In this document: positions 1 to 49,400 of the stretch, in pieces | How the letters are laid out: each line of letters opens with the position of its first letter | Position numbering within the stretch: the stretch's first letter is position 1 | Origin: Halococcus agarilyticus | GTDB taxonomy: Archaea; Halobacteriota; Halobacteria; Halobacteriales; Halococcaceae | Direction: 5' to 3' | Length of the DNA: 64,000 nt | Assembly (NCBI RefSeq): GCF_000334895.1 | Contig: NZ_BAFM01000002.1 | Coordinates: 186,001-250,000, forward strand | Notes under the pieces: generated by a model | What the model was told of the DNA's origin: nothing | Database searches by the model: none | What the model saw: the letters and a program-made list of their open reading frames with translations, nothing else | Program-made: the position numbers and the translations under genes

Positions 1-127
1 GGTCGCCCGACTCCATTCGCCGGATCGCCTCGCGTTCCAGCGCGTCGACGAGGATCTCGATGACCGCGAGCACCAGCGTCATCAGCCCGTCGGCGGCGTC
101 GTCGCCGTCGAGATCAATCTTCGTCAT
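1..127 (-). CDS. gvpK: Gas vesicle protein GvpK, N-terminal part (runs off the left edge)
   Basis: Partial gene. The 42 visible codons begin MTKIDLDGDDAADGLMTL and continue through a helical stretch ending EREAIRRMESGD, the conserved start of GvpK, an accessory protein needed for gas vesicle assembly. The start ATG lies inside the 3' end of gvpJ (14-base overlap), so the two are probably translationally coupled. In other haloarchaea gvpL and gvpM follow; they would lie beyond the edge of this window. Confidence 0.9.
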   Translation of the reverse strand, partial: MTKIDLDGDDAADGLMTLVLAVIEILVDALEREAIRRMESGD

Positions 128-650
128 CGCTCTCCCCGTCGGTCGTTGCCTCCGGTTCAGTGTCGTCGGTATCCTCGGCCGCGTTCTCGCTTTCCTCCCT
201 GTCCTCGCTTCCGTCGGCTTCGTCGCCCTCCCGTCTCGATCGCCCGCCGATCCGCGGTCTGGCCCCGATTCCCGGTTCCGAGGCGGGACTCTCGTCGTCG
301 TAGTCGGTGTCCGAATCGCTTTCGTCGCTCGTGATCGGCGGTTCGGCGAGCCACGACCCGCTTTCGTTGATCGGCGGCGGGTCGTCCTCGTCGTCGACCT
401 CCTCGATCGGGGTCCGGTCGGAGGCCGCCTCGACCCGGCGCATGTCGGTGCCGTCGGGGAACTCGAGGCCGTACTCCGCGGCGGTCTCGAAGGAGGCGAG
501 CGCCGCTCGGAGCTGGATCCCGAGGAGTTCGGTGTCACCCACCGAGACCGCGATGTCGGCGTTGATGACCACGCCCTTGTCGAGCAACATCTCGACCACG
601 TCCGCGAGACTGTCGCTTCGCCGCGTCGGACCGCCGCCGCGCTCACTCAT
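114..650 (-). CDS. gvpJ: Gas vesicle protein GvpJ with a long acidic tail
   Basis: 178 residues. Residues 12-70 form a GvpA/GvpJ-type domain (SLADVVEMLLDKGVVINADI, then TELLGIQLRAALAS), the fold of the shell subunit. GvpJ is a minor, GvpA-like protein required for vesicle formation and thought to act at nucleation or the conical tips. The GvpA-like part is followed by about 108 residues of low-complexity Asp/Glu/Ser-rich sequence. From memory, typical haloarchaeal GvpJ is about 100-115 residues, so the tail is unusually long. The start overlaps the upstream unknown gene by 8 bases and the end overlaps gvpK by 14, which places it in one operon. Confidence 0.9.
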   Translation of the reverse strand: MSERGGGPTRRSDSLADVVEMLLDKGVVINADIAVSVGDTELLGIQLRAALASFETAAEYGLEFPDGTDMRRVEAASDRTPIEEVDDEDDPPPINESGSWLAEPPITSDESDSDTDYDDESPASEPGIGARPRIGGRSRREGDEADGSEDREESENAAEDTDDTEPEATTDGESDDED

Positions 651-1665
651 CGTCGCCCTCCGCCGTCCGGTCGAGGCGTGATCCGTAGAGCCGTGGCCGG
701 TTCGGGGCCGACGAGTAGCGCGTCTCCTCGGGCACCGTCGAGAACGCCGCTCGGCCGCTCATGTCGTTCCGCGAGGTCGGGATCGAGGAGTACGCCGTCG
801 GGTTCCGCGACTCCGGCTGTTCGACGTCCTCGGTCCGTGCTTCGTTTTCCTCCTTGAGCTCCTTGACGCGCTCTCTCGTGTCGAGCAGGCTCTCCCTGAA
901 CTCCTCGACCGCGTCGCTGAGCTTCGACTGGACCCGCTGCTGGATGGTCTCGGTCGGGACGTCGATATCGTCGCGCTCGCTCCCGCCCTCGGCGTCGGCG
1001 TTGACGTCGGCTGTACCGCTGGCACCCCCACCCTCGATACTGCCGGCGTCGTCGCCGTCGGCATCGTCGTCGCCCACGAGCTCGCGGAGTTTCGCCATCG
1101 GCCCTTTCTCGTCGTCCTCGTCGTCGGTCAGTTCGTCGGTCGCGTCGTCGAACTCGCGCTTGTTCCGCCAGAACTCCCGGACGTCGACCGTATCCCAGAG
1201 TTTCCCGAGTTCGACGACCTGGAGGAGCTTTCGGTACTTCACGGCCTCGCCGGGGTCGCCCTCCGCGATCGCCTCGGGGACCTCGCTCGCGTCGATCGCG
1301 TCCGGCAGCTCCGAGAGGTCGACGGCGTCCGGGAGGTCGGTGAGATCGATGGTTTCGAGGAGCTCCTCGATCTCCTCGACGACCGCGATGAGGTCCTCGA
1401 CGTCCTCCTGTACCTCCTCGAACGGGTGGTCGCTCTCGTGGGCGGTGAGCAGCGCGTCGACGTCGCCCATCGCGCGGTCGAGCAGGTCGTCGAGATCGCG
1501 GTCGGGTACGTTCCCGTCGTCGGTCGACGGCTCGTCAGCTTCGTCGGCCACCTCGTCGCCCCCGGTGCTCCCTTCATCCGTTTCCTCGACCGTCTCGGAC
1601 AGATCGTCGAGCGTCTCCGCGACGTCCTCGACGTCCTCGCGACCCTCGACCGACTGGTCGCTCAC
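643..1665 (-). CDS. Unrecognised acidic protein inside the gvp operon
   Basis: 340 residues, function unknown. Residues 1-58 are an acidic low-complexity leader. Residues 60-175 are helical: an amphipathic stretch rich in Glu/Leu/Ile, three short Leu-Pro-(Asp/Glu)-Ala repeats (LPDAVDLSELPDAIDASEVP), then a conserved-looking block YRKLLQVVELGKLWDTVDVR followed by FWRNKREFDD. A coiled-coil-like segment lies near 240-285, and the last 50 residues are Ser/Arg/Pro-rich (STVPEETRYSSAPNRPRLYG). No signal peptide or membrane segment is visible. It starts 4 bases after the preceding gene and overlaps gvpJ by 8 bases, so it is almost certainly co-translated with gvp genes. A gas-vesicle role is inference from position only. 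Confidence 0.75.
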   Translation of the reverse strand: MSDQSVEGREDVEDVAETLDDLSETVEETDEGSTGGDEVADEADEPSTDDGNVPDRDLDDLLDRAMGDVDALLTAHESDHPFEEVQEDVEDLIAVVEEIEELLETIDLTDLPDAVDLSELPDAIDASEVPEAIAEGDPGEAVKYRKLLQVVELGKLWDTVDVREFWRNKREFDDATDELTDDEDDEKGPMAKLRELVGDDDADGDDAGSIEGGGASGTADVNADAEGGSERDDIDVPTETIQQRVQSKLSDAVEEFRESLLDTRERVKELKEENEARTEDVEQPESRNPTAYSSIPTSRNDMSGRAAFSTVPEETRYSSAPNRPRLYGSRLDRTAEGDDE

Positions 1666-1669
1666 GGCA

Positions 1670-2173
1670 TCACCCGTCCTCCGAGCGCTCCTCGAGTTCG
1701 GTCATCAATTGATCGGCGAGCGACTGGAGCTCGTCGGTCGACATCTCGTCGAGGTCCTCGGGCGGCTCGGACGAGGTGTTCTCCGCGTCCTCGTCGGCCG
1801 TATCGCCGGTGTCGTCGCCACCGGTCGTCCCGCTCACGAGACTCTCGGCGGCCCCCTCGATGTCGGTCGTCTCGAGATAGCTCACCAGCAGCGTGACCAT
1901 CCGTTCGTCGAGGTCGACGTTCCGGCCGAGGATCTCGCCCAGCCGCCGGCCGACGAGGCCACCGAGCGTCCGGCCGAGCGACTCGCCGACCTCGGGGAGA
2001 TCGGCGCTGCTCGACGACGTTTTCGACGTATCGGTCTCGTCGTCGGTATCGGCGACATCGCTCTCGTCGGTACCGTCGCCCCGATCGAGGAGTTCGGCCA
2101 CGCCTCCCTCGTCGGAGCCGAGCCGTTCTTTCAGCTGTGAAATCTTCTCCGTGGTTTCGTCTCGTTGGCTCAT
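1670..2173 (-). CDS. Unrecognised acidic protein in the gvp operon, paralogue of the gene at 5369-5794
   Basis: 167 residues, function unknown. A short N-terminal helix (KISQLKERLG) leads into an acidic linker. Residues 57-85 carry a Gly/Leu/Arg motif, LGRTLGGLVGRRLGEILG, followed by a helix (RMVTLLVSYLETTDIEGAAE), another acidic linker and a C-terminal helix (MSTDELQSLADQLMTELEE). The Gly/Leu/Arg motif and the C-terminal pattern recur in the protein just beyond gvpO. It lies 15 bases after the previous gene and 4 bases before the next. It occupies part of the interval where gvpI sits in other haloarchaeal clusters, but it is acidic whereas GvpI is described as basic, so I do not call it GvpI. 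Confidence 0.7.
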   Translation of the reverse strand: MSQRDETTEKISQLKERLGSDEGGVAELLDRGDGTDESDVADTDDETDTSKTSSSSADLPEVGESLGRTLGGLVGRRLGEILGRNVDLDERMVTLLVSYLETTDIEGAAESLVSGTTGGDDTGDTADEDAENTSSEPPEDLDEMSTDELQSLADQLMTELEERSEDG

Positions 2174-2188
2174 GGATGATCGTGGCCG

Positions 2189-2818
2189 CTAATCGCTCTC
2201 TTCGTCGTCTTCGCTCTCTTCGTCGTCTTCGCTCTCTTCGTCGTCTTCGCTCTCTTCGTCGTCTTCGCTCTCTTCGTCGTCTTCGCTCTCTTCGTCGTCT
2301 TCGGTGCTGGCTTCGTCGCCGTTCTCACTCTCGTCGTCCCCGAGTGCGTCGAGGAGTGCGTCGAGAACGACGTTGATCGCACCGAACAGGACGTCGGACG
2401 TCGACGGGATCTCGATCTCCGGCAGCAGACTGCCGAGGTCGAACCCACCCTCGGGCAACATCCCGCCGAGCGCTCCCGCAACGTCGTCGAGCAGCCCCAC
2501 GACCTGCGACAGCAGATTCCCGAGGAGGTTCCCCGAACCCGGGACGGCCGAAACGTCCAGCACGACCTCGTTCAGGTCGATCTCCACGCCGAGCAGGTCG
2601 ACGAACAGCCCCTCGAGGTCGAGGTATACGAGGCTCGTCCCCTCCCCGCCAGCGTCGCGTCCGCTCTGTGCGCTCTTTTCGGGAGCATCACCGCTTCCGG
2701 ATTCGTCCTCGCCACCGTCGGCCAACACGACCGGCGATCCCGGCGGTACTGTGTCGGCCGAGACGTCGGTGCGTTCGTCCGTCGATCGACCGGCCGTGGT
2801 GTCGGAGTCGTCTGTCAT
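2189..2818 (-). CDS. Unrecognised gvp-operon protein with a Gly/Leu core and an acidic tandem-repeat tail
   Basis: 209 residues. Residues 1-60 are polar and disordered-looking. Residues 62-158 form a hydrophobic, Gly/Leu-rich core (LVYLDLEGLFVDLLGVEIDL, then VSAVPGSGNLLGNLLSQVVG and a Leu/Asp helix at 143-160). I recall this core type from uncharacterised secreted or surface proteins in haloarchaea and bacteria, but assign no function. Residues 174-209 are a perfect Glu-Asp-Asp-Glu-Glu-Ser repeat. The start overlaps the gvpH stop by 4 bases (ATGA), the signature of coupled translation. No Sec or Tat signal is visible despite the surface-protein-like core. Possibly a vesicle-surface or assembly protein, by inference from context. 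Confidence 0.75.
   Translation of the reverse strand: MTDDSDTTAGRSTDERTDVSADTVPPGSPVVLADGGEDESGSGDAPEKSAQSGRDAGGEGTSLVYLDLEGLFVDLLGVEIDLNEVVLDVSAVPGSGNLLGNLLSQVVGLLDDVAGALGGMLPEGGFDLGSLLPEIEIPSTSDVLFGAINVVLDALLDALGDDESENGDEASTEDDEESEDDEESEDDEESEDDEESEDDEESEDDEESD
2193..2300. repeat. Six perfect tandem copies of an 18-bp unit inside a coding region
   Basis: The unit TCGCTCTCTTCGTCGTCT occurs six times without a mismatch, ending two bases before the stop codon of the leftward gene at 2189-2818. Each unit adds six residues (Glu/Asp/Ser) and preserves the frame. Identity at third codon positions points to recent slippage or recombination rather than protein-level selection. Confidence 0.95.
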
Positions 2819-3285
2819 TGTTTCGTATCCTCGGTGGGGCGGAGGTACACTTCGAGAACCGCGTTGTTGAACGACGCGCCGTCGACGGCGAACCCGCCGT
2901 CGGGCAGGTCGACCCTGGTGAGGAGCCGGTCGTCGTCAGCGATCAGGAGCGTCCGTGAGTCGTCGGTGACGCCGGCGGCGAGGCCCTCCGGATCGATCGC
3001 CGGCAGATCGGCCGTGACCACGAGACCGTCCTCGACGCGCCGGACGCTCGTGGCGTACTCGGTGTCGGTCGTTTCGAGGGCGGCCGTCCGGGACTCGTCC
3101 GTGGTGCTCGGGACTTCGCCAGGCCTGATGGTCCCGACCGTGATCCCGTACTCCGCACGCCGCTTGCCGTCGGTGACGCTGCCGGTTCTCCTCGCGCGCC
3201 CGTCCTCGTCCGCGTCGGCAGCCGCTTCGAGCGCGTCGCGGAGTGCTGTTCGGATCAGTCCGCCGATCGTGTCTCTGTTACTCAT
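2815..3285 (-). CDS. gvpH: Gas vesicle protein GvpH (Hsp20-like)
   Basis: 156 residues. The C-terminal two thirds have the beta-rich pattern of a small heat-shock/alpha-crystallin-type fold: YATSVRRVEDGLVVTADLPA, a Leu-leu-Ile-Ala strand, then a final strand NAVLEVYLRP. GvpH is an accessory protein of haloarchaeal gas vesicles, reported to bind GvpI and to act chaperone-like. The polar N-terminus (to about residue 75) is variable. Its start overlaps the gvpG stop by 4 bases and its stop overlaps the next gene by 4 bases. The order F-G-H matches other haloarchaeal clusters; what follows does not. Confidence 0.85.
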   Translation of the reverse strand: MSNRDTIGGLIRTALRDALEAAADADEDGRARRTGSVTDGKRRAEYGITVGTIRPGEVPSTTDESRTAALETTDTEYATSVRRVEDGLVVTADLPAIDPEGLAAGVTDDSRTLLIADDDRLLTRVDLPDGGFAVDGASFNNAVLEVYLRPTEDTKQ

Positions 3286-3533
3286 CGTTTGATCTCGACT
3301 TTCCCCTGGAGGTTCTCGCGTGCCTGTTCGGCCACATCGAGCTGACGTTCGAGGTCGGTGCGGCGCTCCTCGTACTCCTCGCGCGAGCGCTCGCCGACCT
3401 CGAACAGCAGCCGGTTCTCCTTGATGTCGTCGCGGATCGCCTCGACGTCGTACAGCTCCTCGATCGCCATCGCGTGAACCACGTTGATGAGGGAGACGAA
3501 CGGCCGCACGAGGAGGTCGTCGACGACGAACAT
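3282..3533 (-). CDS. gvpG: Gas vesicle protein GvpG
   Basis: 83 residues, the usual size for GvpG. It has the typical hydrophobic start (FVVDDLLVRPFVSLINVVHA) and then a charged coiled-coil-forming helix with Glu/Arg heptad-like spacing (SREEYEERRTDLERQLDVAE). GvpG is a small accessory protein required early in gas vesicle formation. It lies one base after the gvpF stop and overlaps gvpH by 4 bases, so F, G and H are one transcriptional and translational unit. Confidence 0.92.
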   Translation of the reverse strand: MFVVDDLLVRPFVSLINVVHAMAIEELYDVEAIRDDIKENRLLFEVGERSREEYEERRTDLERQLDVAEQARENLQGKVEIKR

Positions 3534-3534
3534 C

Positions 3535-4167
3535 TCACCGCTGCGCCCCGATCTCGATGTCGACGAAGCTGTACGGTGCCCACGGGCCGGTGTACTGGAC
3601 GGTAAAGGTCTCGCCGTACTCGTCGATGATCCCGTCGACCGCCTCGTCGAACGCCGCTCGGTCGTCGCGCTCGACGAGGTACGATCGGTTCAGTACGAGT
3701 CGGTCGCTGAACAGTCCGTTCTCGGCCTCGCTCACGCTCACCGGTTCGAGTCGCTCCGTGACCGACGCCACGATCGACTCCCGGTCGACCGTCGCGCCCT
3801 CGTCGGCGAGGATCTTGAGCCCCAGCTCGACCCGCCCCTCGACGTCGTTCAGCGCCTTCCGGAACGCCCGCCGGCCGCCACGGAGCACGCCCTTCAGCGC
3901 GCGGGCGTTCTTGAACACCATCCCGAACTGCATCGGGACCACCGTCCGGCCGCCGTCACGGTACAGCAACTCCTGCAGCACGTCGTCGTGCGCCCGGAGG
4001 TTCTCGTCGCTTCGGTCCGGCTCCATCGTCTCGCTGTCGCTCACGACCGCCGCGAGGCTACCGTGCTCGACCGCGTACACGTCGGTCGCACCGTCGACGC
4101 CATCGGTCTCGAACGCGACGTCCGCGTCGTCGGTGATCCCGTACGTGTAGAGGTGTGTGCTTGCCAT
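3535..4167 (-). CDS. gvpF: Gas vesicle protein GvpF (GvpF/GvpL family)
   Basis: 210 residues, normal for the family. It opens HLYTYGITDDADVAFETDGV, has the family core VVPMQFGMVFKNARALKGVL, and ends GPWAPYSFVDIEIG, all typical of GvpF/GvpL proteins. GvpF contacts GvpA and is thought to help seed the shell. The ATG at 4165-4167 is chosen because a TATA-like element lies about 45 bases upstream and the protein then starts as family members do; an in-frame reading extends further upstream but lacks conserved sequence. It is the first gene of the leftward operon and is divergent from gvpA. gvpD and gvpE, which precede gvpF in several clusters, are absent. Confidence 0.93.
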   Translation of the reverse strand: MASTHLYTYGITDDADVAFETDGVDGATDVYAVEHGSLAAVVSDSETMEPDRSDENLRAHDDVLQELLYRDGGRTVVPMQFGMVFKNARALKGVLRGGRRAFRKALNDVEGRVELGLKILADEGATVDRESIVASVTERLEPVSVSEAENGLFSDRLVLNRSYLVERDDRAAFDEAVDGIIDEYGETFTVQYTGPWAPYSFVDIEIGAQR

Positions 4168-4369: not shown

Positions 4370-4708
4370 ATGGCAAGTGAACGACCGAGTACGGCAAGCC
4401 TCGCTGAAGTGGTCGACCGCATCCTCGACAAGGGGATCGTCATCGACATCTGGGCGCGGGTGTCGGTCGTCGGGATCGAGATCCTGACTGTGGAGGCGCG
4501 GGTGGTCGCCGCGTCGGTGGACACCTTCCTCCACTACAGCAAGGAGATATCGAAGTTGGAGATGGCGAGCCAGTCCGGCGACCTCGAGGACCTCCAGAAC
4601 CTCGAGCTCGGCACCTCGCCGATGACACAGCCCGAACCCGACGAGCCGGAAGTCCACATCGAGGAGACGGACGAGGAAGAAGAACAAGAACAGGAAGCCG
4701 AGCAGTAA
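4370..4708 (+). CDS. gvpA: Major gas vesicle structural protein GvpA with a C-terminal acidic extension
   Basis: 112 residues. Residues 9-66 are a near-canonical GvpA ([20 protein letters not shown], then [20 protein letters not shown] and [13 protein letters not shown]), the subunit that polymerises into the gas-filled shell. From memory, haloarchaeal GvpA is usually 76-79 residues. Here about 45 further residues follow, ending in an Asp/Glu/Gln-rich stretch ([14 protein letters not shown]). It is divergent from gvpF, with gvpO 127 bases downstream. In many clusters gvpC and gvpN lie between gvpA and gvpO, but here the gap has no room for them. No second, shorter gvpA is in this window. The tail would have to be accommodated outside the shell. 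Confidence 0.95.
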
Positions 4709-4835: not shown

Positions 4836-5366
4836 ATGGCCGACCTCGACCCGACGGAACACACGATCGACGAACTGGACGACGAACTCGAATCGGTCGA
4901 CGACCCCGAGCGGCTCCGCGATATCCACGACGCCGAAACCGACGGCGAGGACCGAACCGGGGCCACCGAGCTGATCGAGGAGCGCCTCGCAGCGGTACAG
5001 GAGGAACTCGACCGTCGCGAGGCCGAGGGGCAGAACGGTGACGATGAGGGCGCGAGCGAGGCCGCCGACGAAACGACCGAAGAAAGCTCGGGATCGGGTG
5101 GGGTCGGCATCATCGACGTCCGCAACCAGGTCCGGAGCGTGGCGGCCGACCTGATCGGCCGGCCGCTCGACGGGATCACCGAGGTTCGGGCGGACGACGA
5201 CGGCTGGTACACCACGGTCGAGGTGATCGAGCGCAACTCGATCCCGGACACCCAGGACATCCTCGGGCGGTACGAGATCGACCTCGACGCCGACGCCAAC
5301 GTCGTCGGCTACCGCCGGCTCCGACGGTATCGGCGGGGCGACACGGACGACGAGGCCGTCGAATAG
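4836..5366 (+). CDS. gvpO: Gas vesicle protein GvpO
   Basis: 176 residues. The C-terminal domain (about 90-170) matches GvpO: IIDVRNQVRSVAADLIGRPL, the Trp-Tyr strand DDGWYTTVEVIERNSIPDTQ and the final YEIDLDADANVVGYRRLRRY. GvpO is an accessory protein required for vesicle formation in haloarchaea. The N-terminal half is an acidic helix and linker (residues 1-88) that makes the protein longer than the 120-140 residues I remember for other GvpO. It is downstream of gvpA in the same direction and convergent with the next gene, whose stop lies 2 bases away. Confidence 0.9.
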   Translation: MADLDPTEHTIDELDDELESVDDPERLRDIHDAETDGEDRTGATELIEERLAAVQEELDRREAEGQNGDDEGASEAADETTEESSGSGGVGIIDVRNQVRSVAADLIGRPLDGITEVRADDDGWYTTVEVIERNSIPDTQDILGRYEIDLDADANVVGYRRLRRYRRGDTDDEAVE

Positions 5367-5368
5367 CG

Positions 5369-5794
5369 CTACTCCGCTATGTCGAGCGTCTCGACCAGTC
5401 GGTCCTCCATCTCCTCGCGCTTGAGGTTCGCCGTCACGTCGACCTCCTTCGCGAGCTTCTGGAGTTCGCGGTAGGACAGCTCGTCGAGCTCCGCGCGCGA
5501 CGACGGCCGCCCGGACTCCTCGGCGGCCTCGGTTCCCTCACCGTTTTCGTCCCCGGACGCGTCCTGTCCGCCGGTTTCGTCTCCCTGATCTTCGTCCGCC
5601 CGATCTTCGTCCGCGGTGGCGTCCTCGTCGCCGACCGGCGAGCCGACCGTGGCGTCGCTACCCGGTTTCGCCGCCCCGACGCCGGCCACGAGCGCCTCGC
5701 CGAGCCGACGTCCCAGCAGCCCGCCGACCTGCTGTCCGAGCGCCTCGCCGAGTCGCCGCCCGCGCGCCTCGCTGGTCGGTTCCTGTTCGCTCAT
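5369..5794 (-). CDS. Unrecognised gvp-flanking protein with a Rho-N/SAP-like C-terminus
   Basis: 141 residues, function unknown. Residues 10-36 hold a doubled Gly/Leu/Arg motif (RGRRLGEALGQQVGGLLGRR, then LGEAL) that matches the motif in the gvp-operon gene at 1670-2173. An acidic low-complexity linker spans 45-100. Residues 103-139 (LDELSYRELQKLAKEVDVTA, then REEMEDRLVETL) look like the short helix-extended-helix of Rho-N/SAP domains, which often bind nucleic acid or act as protein docking modules. The ATG at 5792-5794 starts right at the conserved motif. It is convergent with gvpO, with stops 2 bases apart. The shared motif suggests both genes serve the gas vesicle cluster; that is inference. 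Confidence 0.7.
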   Translation of the reverse strand: MSEQEPTSEARGRRLGEALGQQVGGLLGRRLGEALVAGVGAAKPGSDATVGSPVGDEDATADEDRADEDQGDETGGQDASGDENGEGTEAAEESGRPSSRAELDELSYRELQKLAKEVDVTANLKREEMEDRLVETLDIAE

Positions 5795-43624: not shown

Positions 43625-44449
43625 ATGTCACTACGGATCGGGACGGCCCTCCGCGAGGGTGCTCGCCGGACGTTCACGCGCGACGGTCTCGTTCTCGTGA
43701 TCGTGTTCGTGCTCATCGGGATCATCACCGCTCTCGCCACGCAGACGATCACCGCCGAAATTCTCGATGCATTTCTCGAGTTTGCACGGTCGAATCAGGG
43801 GACCGGCGAGGGGGAAATCACCCCCGAGCAGGTCGACACGTTCGAAACGTTCGCTGAGGGACAGGCCCGGTTCGCGCTCCCGATCTCGCCTATCGTGGCG
43901 GGGCTGCTCCTCGTACTCACCGCGTTCCTCGCGGAGGCGGCCAATCTCGTCGCCATTCGAGCCTTTTTGGCCGAGAGTGGCCGAGCGCTCTCGGGTGGAC
44001 TCGCCAGGCGGAACATCGTCGTGGCGACGCTCAACGGCATCGTCGGCGGGATCGTCGTCGGCGTCATCGTCGCCATCGGCCTCGTGTTCTTGATCGTGCC
44101 GGGGATCTTCTTCGCGATCGCCTTCCTCTTTCTCAGACAGGAGATCGCGGTCGAGGACACCAACTTCGTCGACGCGATGGCGGACAGCTGGCAGCTCACG
44201 AAGGGCGACCGGCTCGAACTGTTCGCGCTCGTGCTCGGGGTGGTCGTTCTCATCTCGCTCGTCTCGACGGTGGTGCCGCTGCTGATCGGGTTCGTCAGCC
44301 CGCTCGTCAACGTGGTCGTCTCGATCCTCCTCGGCGGCGTGACGGCCGTGTTCGGGACCGCGGTGATGACGCGCGCGTACGCACAGCTCCACGCCGACCG
44401 CGCCGCCGTCCGGAACGGCGAGACGAACGCCGACGAGCGGGCGGTCTGA
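43625..44449 (+). CDS. Six-helix membrane protein (DUF7847-like), unknown function
   Basis: 274 residues with about six membrane segments: LVLVIVFVLIGIITALA, FALPISPIVAGLLLVLTAFL, VVATLNGIVGGIVVGVIVAI with GLVFLIVPGIFFAIAFLFLR, LFALVLGVVVLISLVSTVVP and LIGFVSPLVNVVVSILLGGV. The loop RQEIAVEDTNFVDAMADSWQ resembles the family often labelled glycerophosphodiester-phosphodiesterase membrane domain or DUF7847. GGAGG at 43616-43620 precedes the ATG, and GATTTAACAC near 43594-43603 is a likely TATA box. Function unknown. Confidence 0.78.
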   Translation: MSLRIGTALREGARRTFTRDGLVLVIVFVLIGIITALATQTITAEILDAFLEFARSNQGTGEGEITPEQVDTFETFAEGQARFALPISPIVAGLLLVLTAFLAEAANLVAIRAFLAESGRALSGGLARRNIVVATLNGIVGGIVVGVIVAIGLVFLIVPGIFFAIAFLFLRQEIAVEDTNFVDAMADSWQLTKGDRLELFALVLGVVVLISLVSTVVPLLIGFVSPLVNVVVSILLGGVTAVFGTAVMTRAYAQLHADRAAVRNGETNADERAV

Positions 44450-44496
44450 CGCCGGGGAGCCGCGGCGTTTAACCGCACGCCGATCCTTCGTCCACC

Positions 44497-45024
44497 ATGG
44501 CAGAGCCACGCGTCCCCGGGAGCCGGGGGTCGGACCTCGCCCTCCCCTGTGGCGAGTCGGTCGCCGTTGCGGACCTCGACATGGGGATGCGGGAGTTCGG
44601 CTGTGACTGTGGCGAGCGTCACGCCCTCGTGATGGACGTCCACCCGCCGAGCCGGTTCGTCCCCGAATCGCTCGTCGACGTGCTCCGCGAGACGATCGAC
44701 CCCGAGGAGGGCGGCGAGTTCGACACGATGCATCTGATGGGCGTCGTGCTGGAGGAGTTCCCCGAGAAGGTCGTCGCCGAGGACGTCGCGGAGAACAGCG
44801 ACGTGGGGTACGCGCTGGTCTGGGTCACCGAGTTCGACGCGCGCCGACTCCACGAGATCGTGGTCGAACTCGTCGTGGAGCTGATGGAACACGCGGTGAG
44901 CCACGCCGACGACGACGCAGCCGGCGAGTTCGAACGCCAGATGCACGAGTTCGACGTGGCGGCGTTCGTCGAGCAGTACCGCCGCGAGCGCGAGTTCGAA
45001 CGCGAGACCGACACGCCCGTCTGA
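44497..45024 (+). CDS. DUF5815-type haloarchaeal protein
   Basis: 175 residues. The conserved opening AEPRVPGSRGSDLALPCGES is followed by a possible metal site, FGCDCGERHALVMDVHPPSR, with Cys and His residues, and helices MHLMGVVLEEFPEKVVAEDV, HEIVVELVVELMEHAVSHAD. I believe this is DUF5815, present across haloarchaea, function unknown. The tail is charged (YRREREFERETDT). The Cys-x-Cys plus His arrangement suggests a metal-binding knob, which is inference. Confidence 0.75.
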   Translation: MAEPRVPGSRGSDLALPCGESVAVADLDMGMREFGCDCGERHALVMDVHPPSRFVPESLVDVLRETIDPEEGGEFDTMHLMGVVLEEFPEKVVAEDVAENSDVGYALVWVTEFDARRLHEIVVELVVELMEHAVSHADDDAAGEFERQMHEFDVAAFVEQYRREREFERETDTPV

Positions 45025-45128
45025 CGCGGGTTTTCGGTCGGGGCCGCCGCCGGCAGGCGATTCGACTCACACGGCGTCATACGACTGTCTGACGCCATGT
45101 TATGTGGGTGGGGCCCATGGGAAGACGT

Positions 45129-45359
45129 ATGCAACTCCGCCGGGGCGAGTTCGAACGCATCCGGACGGTGCTCGCGGAGGTCGACCCCGACGAGCCGCTG
45201 ACGGCCCGGGAGATCCACGACCTGCTCGACGAGCGCGGCGAAACCCTCGACAGCCCACACCGGGTGGCCACCGTTCTCGGCCGCCGTGCCGAGGGCGAGG
45301 TCGAAGTCATTCGGGACCGGCCGTATCGGTATCGCGTGCTCGACGACACGGCGAACTGA
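45129..45359 (+). CDS. Small winged-helix-like protein
   Basis: 76 residues. Helices FERIRTVLAEVDPDE, LTAREIHDLLDERGETLDSP and HRVATVLGRRAEGEVEVI, followed by a wing strand RPYRYRVLD, form a compact winged-helix pattern like that of many small archaeal DNA-binding proteins. The start MQLRRGEFERIR at 45129 puts the first helix at the N-terminus. Target unknown. It is the last gene before the low-GC patch. Confidence 0.7.
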   Translation: MQLRRGEFERIRTVLAEVDPDEPLTAREIHDLLDERGETLDSPHRVATVLGRRAEGEVEVIRDRPYRYRVLDDTAN

Positions 45360-45624
45360 CCCGTCAAGCCGGCCGGTTCCGGGGCAACTTTCCTTTTCAG
45401 CGAAGCGCTGTTCCATCACAACCAGTAGTTGGCAATACGGTTTCCCCATTCGAAACCTAGACGGAACCGTCTCTCATTTCGTCCTTATCCTGCCGGGCCT
45501 TTCCCCCGCTCAACAAGTTTTTCATCTTCTCCTGTTGTTCCTGAGGAACTATATCGACTATCACGGCCAGATTGGGACAGATTCACACAAAGCACTTCTC
45601 CATCGAAGACTCCATCGCAAGAAC
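45360..45624. other. Low-GC non-coding stretch upstream of the lipoprotein
   Basis: 265 bases lower in GC than the flanking genes. CTATATCG at 45549-45556 is a TATA-like element about 70 bases before the ATG at 45625. No gene is seen in this stretch. Confidence 0.4.
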
Positions 45625-46092
45625 ATGAATCGACGTGACTTCGTCTGTGTGTTGGGGGCCACTATCCTCGGCGGATGCACAACGGCCGGAAATAGTAGTA
45701 ACGGGCAAGGATCGCAAAACACCACAGAGAAAATCCGAGCAAGAATCGATGTCGAGGAAGTGACAGCAAGACAAGCTGGAACAATAACCATTGTCGCTCG
45801 AAATTTCGTCGGAATCGGTCCTCAGACAGGAGACGACGAAACGGTCGCATTAGACTACGGAAACGTAAGCTTCTCAACGAAACCACATGTGGTAAACGAA
45901 TCGTATCCTCCTGAGTATAAGTGGGATTCAACACAGTCAGAAGTAACAGTCAAGATACCTTTTCATGTTCCTGCCAGCACGCAACCGGGGAATTACACCG
46001 AGTCTATCTTCATCTGGACAAAGTCCAGCTATTCGAATGGAACAACCAAACAATACACTATCAGCGTAAAAAATGGGACTACACAGAGGTAA
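45625..46092 (+). CDS. Low-GC Tat-type lipoprotein, unknown function
   Basis: 155 residues. The start NRRDFVCVLGATILGGCTTA is a short Tat-like signal with a lipobox (LGGC), so the protein is probably lipid-anchored outside the membrane. The rest is beta-rich and hydrophilic with several Asn-Xaa-Thr/Ser sequons (NVS, NESYP, NYTES, NGTT), resembling a small immunoglobulin-like domain (GTITIVARNFVGIGPQTGDD; VTVKIPFHVPASTQPGNYTE). Codon use is rich in A/T-ending codons, unlike neighbours, which suggests recent acquisition. No recognised family. Confidence 0.72.
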   Translation: MNRRDFVCVLGATILGGCTTAGNSSNGQGSQNTTEKIRARIDVEEVTARQAGTITIVARNFVGIGPQTGDDETVALDYGNVSFSTKPHVVNESYPPEYKWDSTQSEVTVKIPFHVPASTQPGNYTESIFIWTKSSYSNGTTKQYTISVKNGTTQR

Positions 46093-46412
46093 GGAAACCA
46101 GAGTAGCACGAATCCGAACGGACACACCGGCCCTAGAGTAAATCTGCGCAAATCGCTAAGAAGCACTATCCCACCCTATCAGCAGTACCTAGCCGAGACA
46201 AAGTTGAAATTTTGTAGTCTAAAACCTTCTAAGTAAGTGATTTGTGTTATATCCTTCCCCTACAGTTGCAGTGATCGTTGATAGATAACCGGAGCACCGT
46301 TGAGCGACCGATGGAGTGAAGGCGTTTCCCGCCGGTTTCGATTTTCGAAACTCAGTTGCGCATCTCGTATCCTATCGTGGTGCTTATTACGATGTGCGCA
46401 TCACGACGGGTA
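46093..46412. promoter_or_regulatory. carB: AT-rich region ahead of carB
   Basis: 320 bases with long A/T-rich words (for example TTGAAATTTTGTAGTC near 46204-46219) and no gene that I can support. GCTTATTAC at 46382-46390 is a TATA-like element 23-31 bases before the carB ATG, predicting a leaderless or nearly leaderless mRNA. The upstream part looks like a continuation of the low-GC patch and may be remnant acquired DNA. Confidence 0.45.
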
Positions 46413-49400
46413 ATGACAGACGAGGACAGAACGATTTTGCTCATCGGCAGCGGTCCGATTCAGATCGGCCAAGCGGCGGAGTTCGACTACTCCGGCGCGC
46501 AGGCGTGTCGCGCGCTCGCGGAGGAGGGCGCGCGAGTCGTCCTCGTCAACTCCAACCCGGCGACCATCATGACTGATCCCGAGATGGCCGACGAGGTGTA
46601 CATCGAACCGATCACGACCGACGCGATCGCCGAGATCATCGAGGAGGAGCGCCCGGACGGTGTGATCGCTGGCCTCGGTGGTCAGACGGGACTCAATGTG
46701 ACCGCCGAACTCGCCGAGGAAGGGGTGCTGGAGGAGTACGACGTCGAGATCATGGGGACGCCGCTCGACACCATCTACGCCACCGAGGACCGCGATCTGT
46801 TCCGCCAGCGGATGGAGGACATCGGGCAGCCGGTCCCCGCTTCGACGACGATCACGCTCGACGAGGGCGAGTCGGTGACGAATCTCGACGAGGCGGGCCT
46901 GCGCGAGCGCGTCGACGACGCCGTCGATTCGGTCGGCGGACTCCCGGTCATCTCCCGGACGACCTACACGCTCGGCGGGAGCGGGTCGGGCGTCGTCGAG
47001 GACAGCGAGGAGCTGTACGAGCGCGTCCGGAAGGGGCTGCGGCTCTCACGCAACAGCGAGGTGCTCATCACCGAGTCGATCGCCGGCTGGGTCGAGCTGG
47101 AGTACGAGGTGATGCGCGACGCCGACGACTCGTGTATCATCATCTGCAACATGGAGAACCTCGACCCGATGGGGATTCACACAGGAGAGTCGACCGTCGT
47201 CACGCCCTCACAGGTGATCCCCGACGACGGGCACCAAGAGATGCGCACGGCGGCACTCGACGTGATCCGCGATCTCGGCATCCAGGGTGGCTGTAACATC
47301 CAGTTCGCGTGGCGCGACGACGGCACGCCGGGTGGCGAGTATCGTGTCGTCGAGGTCAATCCCAGAGTCTCGCGCTCCTCCGCACTCGCCTCGAAGGCGA
47401 CCGGGTATCCGATCGCGCGCGTGACGGCAAAGGTCGCCATGGGGAAACGGCTCCACGAGATCGACAACGAGATCACCGGCGAGACCACCGCAGCGTTCGA
47501 GCCTGCGATCGACTACGTGGTGACCAAGGTTCCGAGATGGCCGAGCGAGAAGTTCCGTGACGTGGAGTTCGAACTCGGGACTGCGATGAAGAGCACCGGC
47601 GAGGCGATGGCGATCGGGCGAACCTTCGAAGAATCACTGTTGAAGGCGCTGCGCTCGACCGAATACGAGCCCGACGTCGACTGGGAGGAGGTCGACGACG
47701 CGACGCTCGAAACCGAGTACCTCGAACGGCCGACGCCCGACCGTCCCTACGCGATGTTCGAGGCGGCCGAGCGGGGCTACACCGCCGACGACCTCGCGGC
47801 GCTCACCGGGATCAAGCCGTGGTACACCGAGCGCTACGTCCGGATCGCCGACGCCGCACAGGCGGCCGCCACGGGCGAGTTCCAGCCGGCGGCGAGCGCC
47901 GGGTTCACCAACAGCGAGATCGCCGCGACCGCCGGCGGGGAAGTCAGCGGTGTCGGTGACGTCGAGTCGTCGGTGACGGGCCGGACGTACAAACAGGTCG
48001 ATACGTGCGCCGGCGAATTTGCTGCCGAAACGCCGTACTACTACTCCGCACGCAAGCCCGAGTACGCCGACACCGGTCCCTACGAGGGCGAGGGGGCGGC
48101 GGGTGAGCTCGAAGTCGATCGCGACGTCGAGAGCGTCGTCGTGGTCGGTGGCGGCCCGATCCGGATCGGCCAGGGCGTCGAGTTCGACTACTGCTCGGTC
48201 CACGCGGTGCGCGCACTCAGAGAGATGGGGATCGAAGCCCACGTCGTCAACAACAATCCCGAGACCGTCTCGACGGACTACGACACCAGCGATGGCTTGT
48301 TCTTCGAGCCGATCACGCCCGAGGAGGTTGCCGACGCGATCGAGGCCACCGGGGCCGACGGCGTGATGGTCCAGTTCGGCGGCCAGACCTCCGTCGACAT
48401 CGGCCGCGGGCTGGAGAGCGAGATCGATCGGCGGGGTCTCGATTGCGAGGTGCTCGGCACGTCTGTCGAGGCGATGGATCTCGCGGAGAACCGCGACCGG
48501 TTCAACGTCCTGATGGACGATCTCGACGTTTCCCAGCCCGTTGGTGGGGCGGCCGTCAGCGAGACCGAGGCGCTCGAACTCGCTCACGAGATCGGCTATC
48601 CTGTCCTCGTACGGCCGAGCTACGTCCTCGGTGGGCGCGCGATGGACGTGGTCTACGACGACGACGGCCTCCGGGAGTACGTCGAGGAGGCCGTCCGGGT
48701 GAGTCCGGACCAGCCGATCCTGGTCGACGAGTTCCTCGCGGGTGCGGTGGAGCTCGACGTCGACGCAGTCGCGGACGGGGAAGACGTCCTGATCGGCGGG
48801 ATCATGGAGCACGTCGAGTCCGCTGGGGTCCACTCGGGCGACTCGGCGTGTATGATCCCGCCGCGCTCGCTCGACGCCGACGTGCTGGCGCGGGTACGCG
48901 ACGTCGTCGAAGGGATCGCGGACGCGCTCGACACCGTTGGCCTGCTCAACGTTCAGCTCGCCGTAAAAGACGGTGAGGTGTACGTATTAGAAGCGAATCC
49001 GCGCTCGTCCCGCACGGTGCCGTTCGTCTCGAAGGCCACGGGGGTACCGATCGCGAAGCTCGCTGCCCAGGTGATGGCGGGTGCGTCGCTCGACGATCTC
49101 GATGCGACCGAACAGGTCCCCGAGCAGACGAGCGTGAAGGAGGTCGTGTTGCCGTTCGATCGGCTGCCGGGGAGCGACCCGCGGCTCGGCCCGGAGATGA
49201 AGTCTACGGGCGAAGTGATGGGAACCGCCGAGGAGTTCGGGAAAGCGTACTGGAAGGCCCAGGCCGCGACGGGCAAGCCGATCCCGAGCGAGGGCGTCGC
49301 GGCGGTCGACCTCTCGGCCGCGGAGTTCCCCGATCCCGAGAGCGACGCGGGACGCGACCTCCAGAACGGGTTCGCTACCCACTTCGATGTCCGCGAGTTC

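Follow-up and report, generated by a model that had tools for sequence, protein, structure and literature searches.

The question raised by the gas vesicle cluster of Halococcus agarilyticus is what the three genes between its gvpH and gvpJ are. The cluster lies in the window, by which we mean the whole 64,000-nucleotide stretch of DNA that was analysed (contig NZ_BAFM01000002.1, positions 186,001–250,000, of a genome of 3.48 Mb). The three genes were given the working labels X1, X2 and X3 in the order from gvpH to gvpJ, and a paralogue of X2 past gvpO was labelled X4. A preliminary description made from the window alone had reported three open reading frames (ORFs) in the interval, none of them matching a gvp gene, and had proposed that they serve gas vesicles. 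Our best reading overall, to which we assign a probability of about 60%, is that the interval holds a long form of GvpI (X3) and two genes of a gas-vesicle accessory module (X1 and X2), that X4 past gvpO is a further member, and that the module has a shell role in place of GvpC. The association with gas vesicles is strong, and the mechanism is what we infer.

ORF reading of the window reproduced the three intact ORFs and their junctions to the base: gvpH and X1 overlap by 4 bases (ATGA), gaps of 15 and 4 bases separate X1 from X2 and X2 from X3, and X3 overlaps gvpJ by 8 bases. The Gly/Leu core reported for X1, the GRxLG motif of X2, and the LPDA repeat and FWRNKREF block of X3 were all found. 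The order and spacing of X1–X3 were the same in three relatives (L062, L068, L094) and in Halocatena loci (L150, L151, L153). Between the window and the three relatives, the ratio of nonsynonymous to synonymous substitution rates (dN/dS) was 0.25–0.56 for X1–X3 and 0.37–0.69 for X4, compared with 0.12–0.34 for gvpF, gvpH and gvpL, and the proportion of nonsynonymous differences was below that of synonymous ones (pN < pS) in X1–X4. The conserved order and spacing, together with the dN/dS of 0.25–0.56, indicated that the ORF arrangement is more than chance. We concluded that X1–X4 are real genes under purifying selection which evolve faster than gvpF, gvpH and gvpL.

X3 was identified first by a tblastn search of plasmid records, in which its residues 257–338 matched gvpI genes annotated on many Halobacterium plasmids (38%, E = 9e-4). 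Alignment of the Halobacterium p- and c-GvpI gave the common motif NPAAHST(M/L)P...HSTVP...RLYGxRL, and the signature shared by GvpI and the X3 homologues is NPxAxSTxP...STVP...RxYGxR. X3 resembles GvpI of Halobacterium salinarum (p-gvpI, 144 amino acids (aa); c-gvpI, 113 aa) in its position between gvpH and gvpJ and in the C-terminal signature NPxAxST(M/I)P...STVP...RLYGxRL. It differs in an additional acidic N-terminal extension of about 240 aa and lacks the basic character of the Halobacterium protein, with an isoelectric point (pI) of 4.05 (C-terminal region, 5.26) versus 10.04; because of this difference, the name GvpI orthologue is given to X3 for its homology and position rather than its biochemistry. 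We compared 81 gvp clusters drawn from the order Halobacteriales. Each of the 81 carried an X3 homologue, located between gvpH and gvpJ in those listed, and all 69 ORFs found with a Halobacterium GvpI query were X3 homologues. Most homologues are long and acidic and are usually annotated as hypothetical proteins in plasmid records. Since most homologues at the gvpH–gvpJ position are long forms, a strongly basic pI was not taken to define the family.

By its sequence X3 is thus almost certainly GvpI, and the claim that all three genes match no gvp gene was wrong for this reason; a divergent GvpI among them was the very outcome that the preliminary description had named beforehand as speaking against it. 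GvpQ was also considered for X3, and its match (E = 0.0027), far below the cut-off, was taken as coiled-coil noise. The long form is a known kind, because a genome paper of 2012 reported long GvpI homologues in Natrialba magadii (Nmag_0338) and Haloterrigena turkmenica (Htur_2370); X3 is of like kind, and X1, X2 and X4 are not described in the part of that paper considered here (PMC3403918). As shown for Halobacterium only, GvpI binds GvpH, and loss of GvpI leads to over-long vesicles (PMC7688916).

X1, X2 and X4 form a haloarchaeal gene module that elsewhere usually forms an operon of its own. The tight packing of X1 and X2 between gvpH and gvpI is shared by four Halococcus-like genomes, Halocatena and a relative. 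Other congeners (L059, L082) have the order gvpM-X2-X1-X4, and Halalkalicoccus (f14) has X1 and X4 on the far side of gvpO. At haloarchaeal X1 loci without gvpF or gvpG nearby, every layout that was read (16/16) was an operon of X1, an X2/X4-type gene, X4 and a GvpI-like gene, and the same quartet was found at the gvp-linked loci L149, L172, L175 and L176. The GvpI-like gene is a paralogue of GvpI: a profile of the unlinked copies alone found X3 of the window at 1.3e-15, and hhalign gave a probability of 99.2%. Because the module carries a GvpI relative, there is independent evidence that it belongs to gas vesicles. X2 is related to X4 (phmmer, 1e-5), and the two share a helix rich in GxxxG and, at the C-terminus, the element xxLQSLAxxxxxEL. 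A single origin of the in-operon arrangement was considered and not adopted; a gvpF+gvpL tree placed the Halococcus-like and Halocatena loci near each other, not in one clade, and without support. The search of open-licence papers returned no description of the module. What is new here is a module that is undescribed, widely conserved in haloarchaea and never together with GvpC in the sampled genomes, the long GvpI being already known.

Two side observations concern cluster content. Haladaptatus-type clusters (f17; L047, L049, L066, L071–L074, L083, L098, L100) have two gvpO genes and an X2-type gene. Only 30 of the 81 haloarchaeal gvp clusters had a gvpN gene within about 9 kb, and gvpN is seemingly absent from Halococcus-type clusters, that of the window included.

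Co-occurrence with gas vesicle genes was counted in 195 genomes of the order and then in 197 further ones. The presence of gvp was scored by gvpG, and X1 was used as the marker of the module. X4 alone was rejected as a marker because its C-terminal domain also turns up in genomes without gvp genes (families f9 and f11). X1 was found in 63 of 195 genomes and in 136 of all 392. In the first set, 61 genomes had both X1 and gvpG, 2 had X1 only, 20 had gvpG only and 112 had neither (p = 3e-30; Fisher's test, which ignores shared ancestry, here and below). After removal of the 19 genomes with X1 within 10 kb of gvpG, the counts were 42/2/20/112 (p = 9e-23), and the second set gave 73/1/7/116 (p = 1e-44). 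The two exceptions in the first set were an X1 copy interrupted by stop codons in a genome of 70% completeness (G089) and a fragmentary match (G008). Unlinked X1 was located on other contigs or, in complete chromosomes, up to megabases away from gvp (G128, G144). As a partial control for ancestry, X1 was present or absent along with gvp within the genera g10, g16, g26 and g43. For X2 and X4, the association rests on their linkage to X1.

These results indicated that X1, X2 and X4 are very probably associated with gas vesicles, and the earlier proposal that the genes serve gas vesicles is backed for these three, unlinked copies included. The expectation that homologues would recur beside gvp genes held for GvpI and for many relatives of X1 and X2; it did not hold for most X1 homologues in the order, which stand in an operon of their own that still tracks the presence of gvp. 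Separately, X1-core frames interrupted by stop codons were seen at G089:C357, G096:C132, G073:C2:335311, G323:C2:238687 and G335:C1:923647, and are possibly decaying duplicates.

The distribution of X1 was then compared with that of GvpC. Halobacterium-type GvpC repeats (PF05465) were found in 11 of 392 genomes, none of which had X1 (0/11). The genera g26 and g30 each hold both a genome with gvpC and a genome with X1 (g30 when the second set is counted). Among 161 gvp-positive genomes, 134 had X1, 10 had GvpC and 17 had neither. PF05465 had no match in the genome of the window, and X1 of the window did not match its repeats. As a side observation, the genomes with neither were G022, G034, G045, G062, G077, G082, G085, G090, G102, G108, G111, G165, G229, G251, G281, G284 and G387; among the 12 that belong to the first set, the gvp cluster of six includes an X2-type gene, and in two (G082, G102) there is gvpN instead.

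X1 has a core with the consensus VLYLDLEGLFLDLLGLEVDLxEVxLDVxAVxGxGNLLGNLLSAVAGLLD, preceded by an N-terminal L(T/P)DGGE motif and an acidic spacer. Searches of X1, X2 and X4 against Pfam, NCBIfam and Rfam returned chance-level or low-complexity matches only, and no family was assigned. The AlphaFold2 model of X1 predicted a beta-hairpin (61–75/78–90) and two helices (98–118 and 140–162) with the remainder disordered; the predicted local distance difference test score (pLDDT) was about 60–75 in the core. Helix 98–118 is amphipathic (moment z = 4.1). A hairpin followed by a helix is loosely reminiscent of the GvpA hairpin. A GvpA/J/M-like shell protein was nevertheless rejected as the identity of X1: hhalign of 79 core sequences with haloarchaeal GvpA, GvpJ and GvpM profiles gave probabilities below 1%, PF00741 did not match, and Foldseek of the model found no match.

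Long homologues of X1 in Halococcus and Halalkalicoccus carry additional tandem amphipathic helices with prolines every 18 residues and a net positive charge, with a moment z of 5.5–10.6 over shuffled sequence. Some of them (L039, L164, L154, L065, L082, L160) have exact 18-residue repeats, and immunoglobulin-like repeats resembling carboxypeptidase regulatory domains upstream of the core. The long homologues are like haloarchaeal GvpC in their tandem amphipathic helices and acidic stretches, and X1 is confined to genomes without GvpC repeats. X1 differs from GvpC in having no detectable sequence relation to it, in its position, which is not directly behind gvpA, and in the 18-residue proline-punctuated repeats of its long homologues versus repeats of 32 positions in GvpC.

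Proteins with such amphipathic helices are typically found on hydrophobic or curved surfaces, GvpC on the vesicle among them, and for this reason a shell-binding or strengthening role is favoured. X1 would use its hydrophobic core and amphipathic helices to attach to the GvpA shell or the shell edges, with an acidic surface facing the brine, and might stiffen or shape the vesicle in clusters without GvpC. X2 and X4 may serve as partners for oligomerisation or as adaptors, and a link between the module and the assembly machinery could be made by GvpI together with GvpH. A GvpC-like shell role of X1 is a tentative proposal at somewhat less than even odds. For the short X1 of the window, such a role is an extrapolation from the long homologues.

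Several points weigh against this reading. The 18-residue repeats are absent from X1 of the window, which has two predicted helices, and its model is weak (mean pLDDT 55.6), with no entry for the core in a search of solved structures in the PDB. The core is not in itself a gas-vesicle domain, because bacterial proteins that carry it (from Salipaludibacillus and a Caldilineaceae genome; L162, L166, L168) have signal-peptide-like N-termini and no gvpF or gvpG within the DNA read. The genomes counted above are phylogenetically non-independent, and the 17 of 161 with neither X1 nor GvpC do without both. The examined clusters with X1 yielded no gvpD or gvpE either, so that the exclusivity is not specific to GvpC and could equally reflect a regulatory difference. 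Finally, a review describes clusters lacking gvpC and gvpDE in Natrialba, Natrinema, Halopiger, Haladaptatus and Natronobacterium, and the species as Vac-negative (PMC4390858); since such species are reported to make no gas vesicles, the product of the module is unobserved.

The main rival is that the module is regulatory, X4 and its partners controlling gvp expression where gvpD and gvpE are missing. X1 anticorrelates with gvpDE as well as with gvpC in the examined clusters; Halobacterium-type gvpD/gvpE occurred in only 7 of 81, every one with gvpC. The model of X4 has a long helix and a C-terminal three-helix domain (pLDDT about 80) whose best PDB matches were the nucleic-acid-binding SAP and Rho N-terminal domains. 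The Foldseek probability was 0.72 and the template modelling score 0.64–0.70 by target, at E values of 3–4, and Pfam Rho_N matched 2 of 12 X4 members, with a best E of only 0.01. This predicted domain keeps a regulatory or adaptor role in play. X1 and X2, however, show no DNA-binding features, the core and 18-residue amphipathic repeats of X1 look structural, and the same operon holds a GvpI-like paralogue, a member of an assembly-protein family. We regard a regulatory role of the module as unlikely.

It is similarly improbable that the product of module clusters is not a classical buoyant gas vesicle but a different structure, for which X1, X2 and X4 provide the specific shell or cargo-interface proteins. 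The Vac-negative reports and the separation of X1 clusters and GvpC clusters into distinct sets are consistent with such a structure. The window cluster, however, has intact gvpA, F, G, J, K, L, M and O, which are reported to be sufficient for vesicles (PMC4390858), and a Vac-negative phenotype may only reflect non-expression under laboratory conditions.

That X1 and X2 are hitch-hiking insertions without a gas-vesicle role is very improbable. The bacterial core homologues would suit it, but the unlinked co-occurrence was replicated in a second genome sample, only 3 of 137 haloarchaeal genomes with X1 had no gvp, and the module includes a GvpI paralogue. X1, X2 and X3 are adjacent and all acidic, as pieces of a split or expanded GvpI might be, but this idea has almost nothing left to it, as a full-length long GvpI stands beside X1 and X2, none of X1, X2 and X4 matches GvpI profiles, and the unlinked module keeps X1, the X2-type gene, X4 and the GvpI-like gene as four separate genes.

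Table 1. Features of the gas vesicle cluster in the window (positions are those of the window).
Feature	Position	Strand	Description
gvpK start	1..127	-	reads on past the window edge; gvpK, then gvpL and gvpM matches
gvpJ	114..650	-	NF046090 halo_gas_GvpJ, 145 bits (cut-off 125)
X3, probable long-form GvpI	643..1665	-	GTG start, 340 aa; acidic N-terminal extension of ~240 aa (LPDA repeat, FWRNKREF block) and GvpI C-terminal domain
X3, GvpI signature region	670..945	-	RNPTAYSSIPTSRNDMSGRAAFSTVPEETRYSSAPNRPRLYGSRL; from alignment with Halobacterium GvpI
X2	1670..2173	-	ATG start, 167 aa, pI 4.05; glycine-zipper-like stretch GRTLGGLVGRRLGEILG; C-terminal MSTDELQSLADQLMTELEERS
X1	2189..2818	-	ATG start, 209 aa, pI 4.05; DGGE near N-terminus, acidic spacer, conserved hydrophobic core, C-terminal amphipathic helix, acidic tail
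X1, core domain (aa 61–118)	2465..2638	-	TSLVYLDLEGLFVDLLGVEIDLNEVVLDVSAVPGSGNLLGNLLSQVVGLLDDVAGALG; predicted beta-hairpin and amphipathic helix
gvpH	2815..3285	-	PF05455, 34 bits (cut-off 22)
gvpG	3282..3533	-	NF045779, 140 bits
gvpF	3535..4167	-	PF06386, 161 bits
gvpA	4370..4708	+	NF046092, 130 bits
gvpO	4836..5366	+	PF05800, 98 bits
X4	5369..5791	-	140 aa, X2 paralogue, tail to tail with gvpO; glycine-zipper-like helix 7–38; predicted SAP/Rho_N-like C-terminal three-helix domain 99–135

No gvpN, gvpD or gvpE was found in the gvp cluster of the window. Six near-perfect tandem repeats of 18 bp (window 2192–2300; SEDDEE x6) encode the acidic tail of X1. The tail is not equally long in all relatives, so it may be length-variable. 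Scans for bacterial promoters and terminators and for TTTAWA gave nothing informative. The G+C content is 62% at window positions 44001–48000 and about 68% in the rest of the window.

Outside haloarchaea, large Planctomycetes proteins also contain the X1 core, in many repeats; the non-haloarchaeal core loci are L162, L166, L168 and L177–L179. The core is thus a more widespread, unnamed domain without a Pfam, NCBIfam or PDB entry that was recruited in haloarchaea. It is possible, though we would put it at clearly less than an even chance, that in the majority of haloarchaeal gas-vesicle systems (134 of the 161 gvp-positive genomes) the GvpA shell is decorated and shaped by the module of X1, X2/X4 and often a second GvpI, and not by GvpC.

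Gas vesicles serve as nanomaterials for ultrasound and display, and GvpC is the main handle on their stiffness. If the reading is true, a non-homologous module would do the job of GvpC in most haloarchaea and would provide new parts for gas-vesicle engineering. Clusters described as lacking gvpC would become a second coherent type, representing a second, unrelated solution to shell reinforcement, which could explain the view that these species have clusters which are incomplete or silent. Protein families that so far bear only the annotation 'hypothetical protein' gain names and candidate functions.

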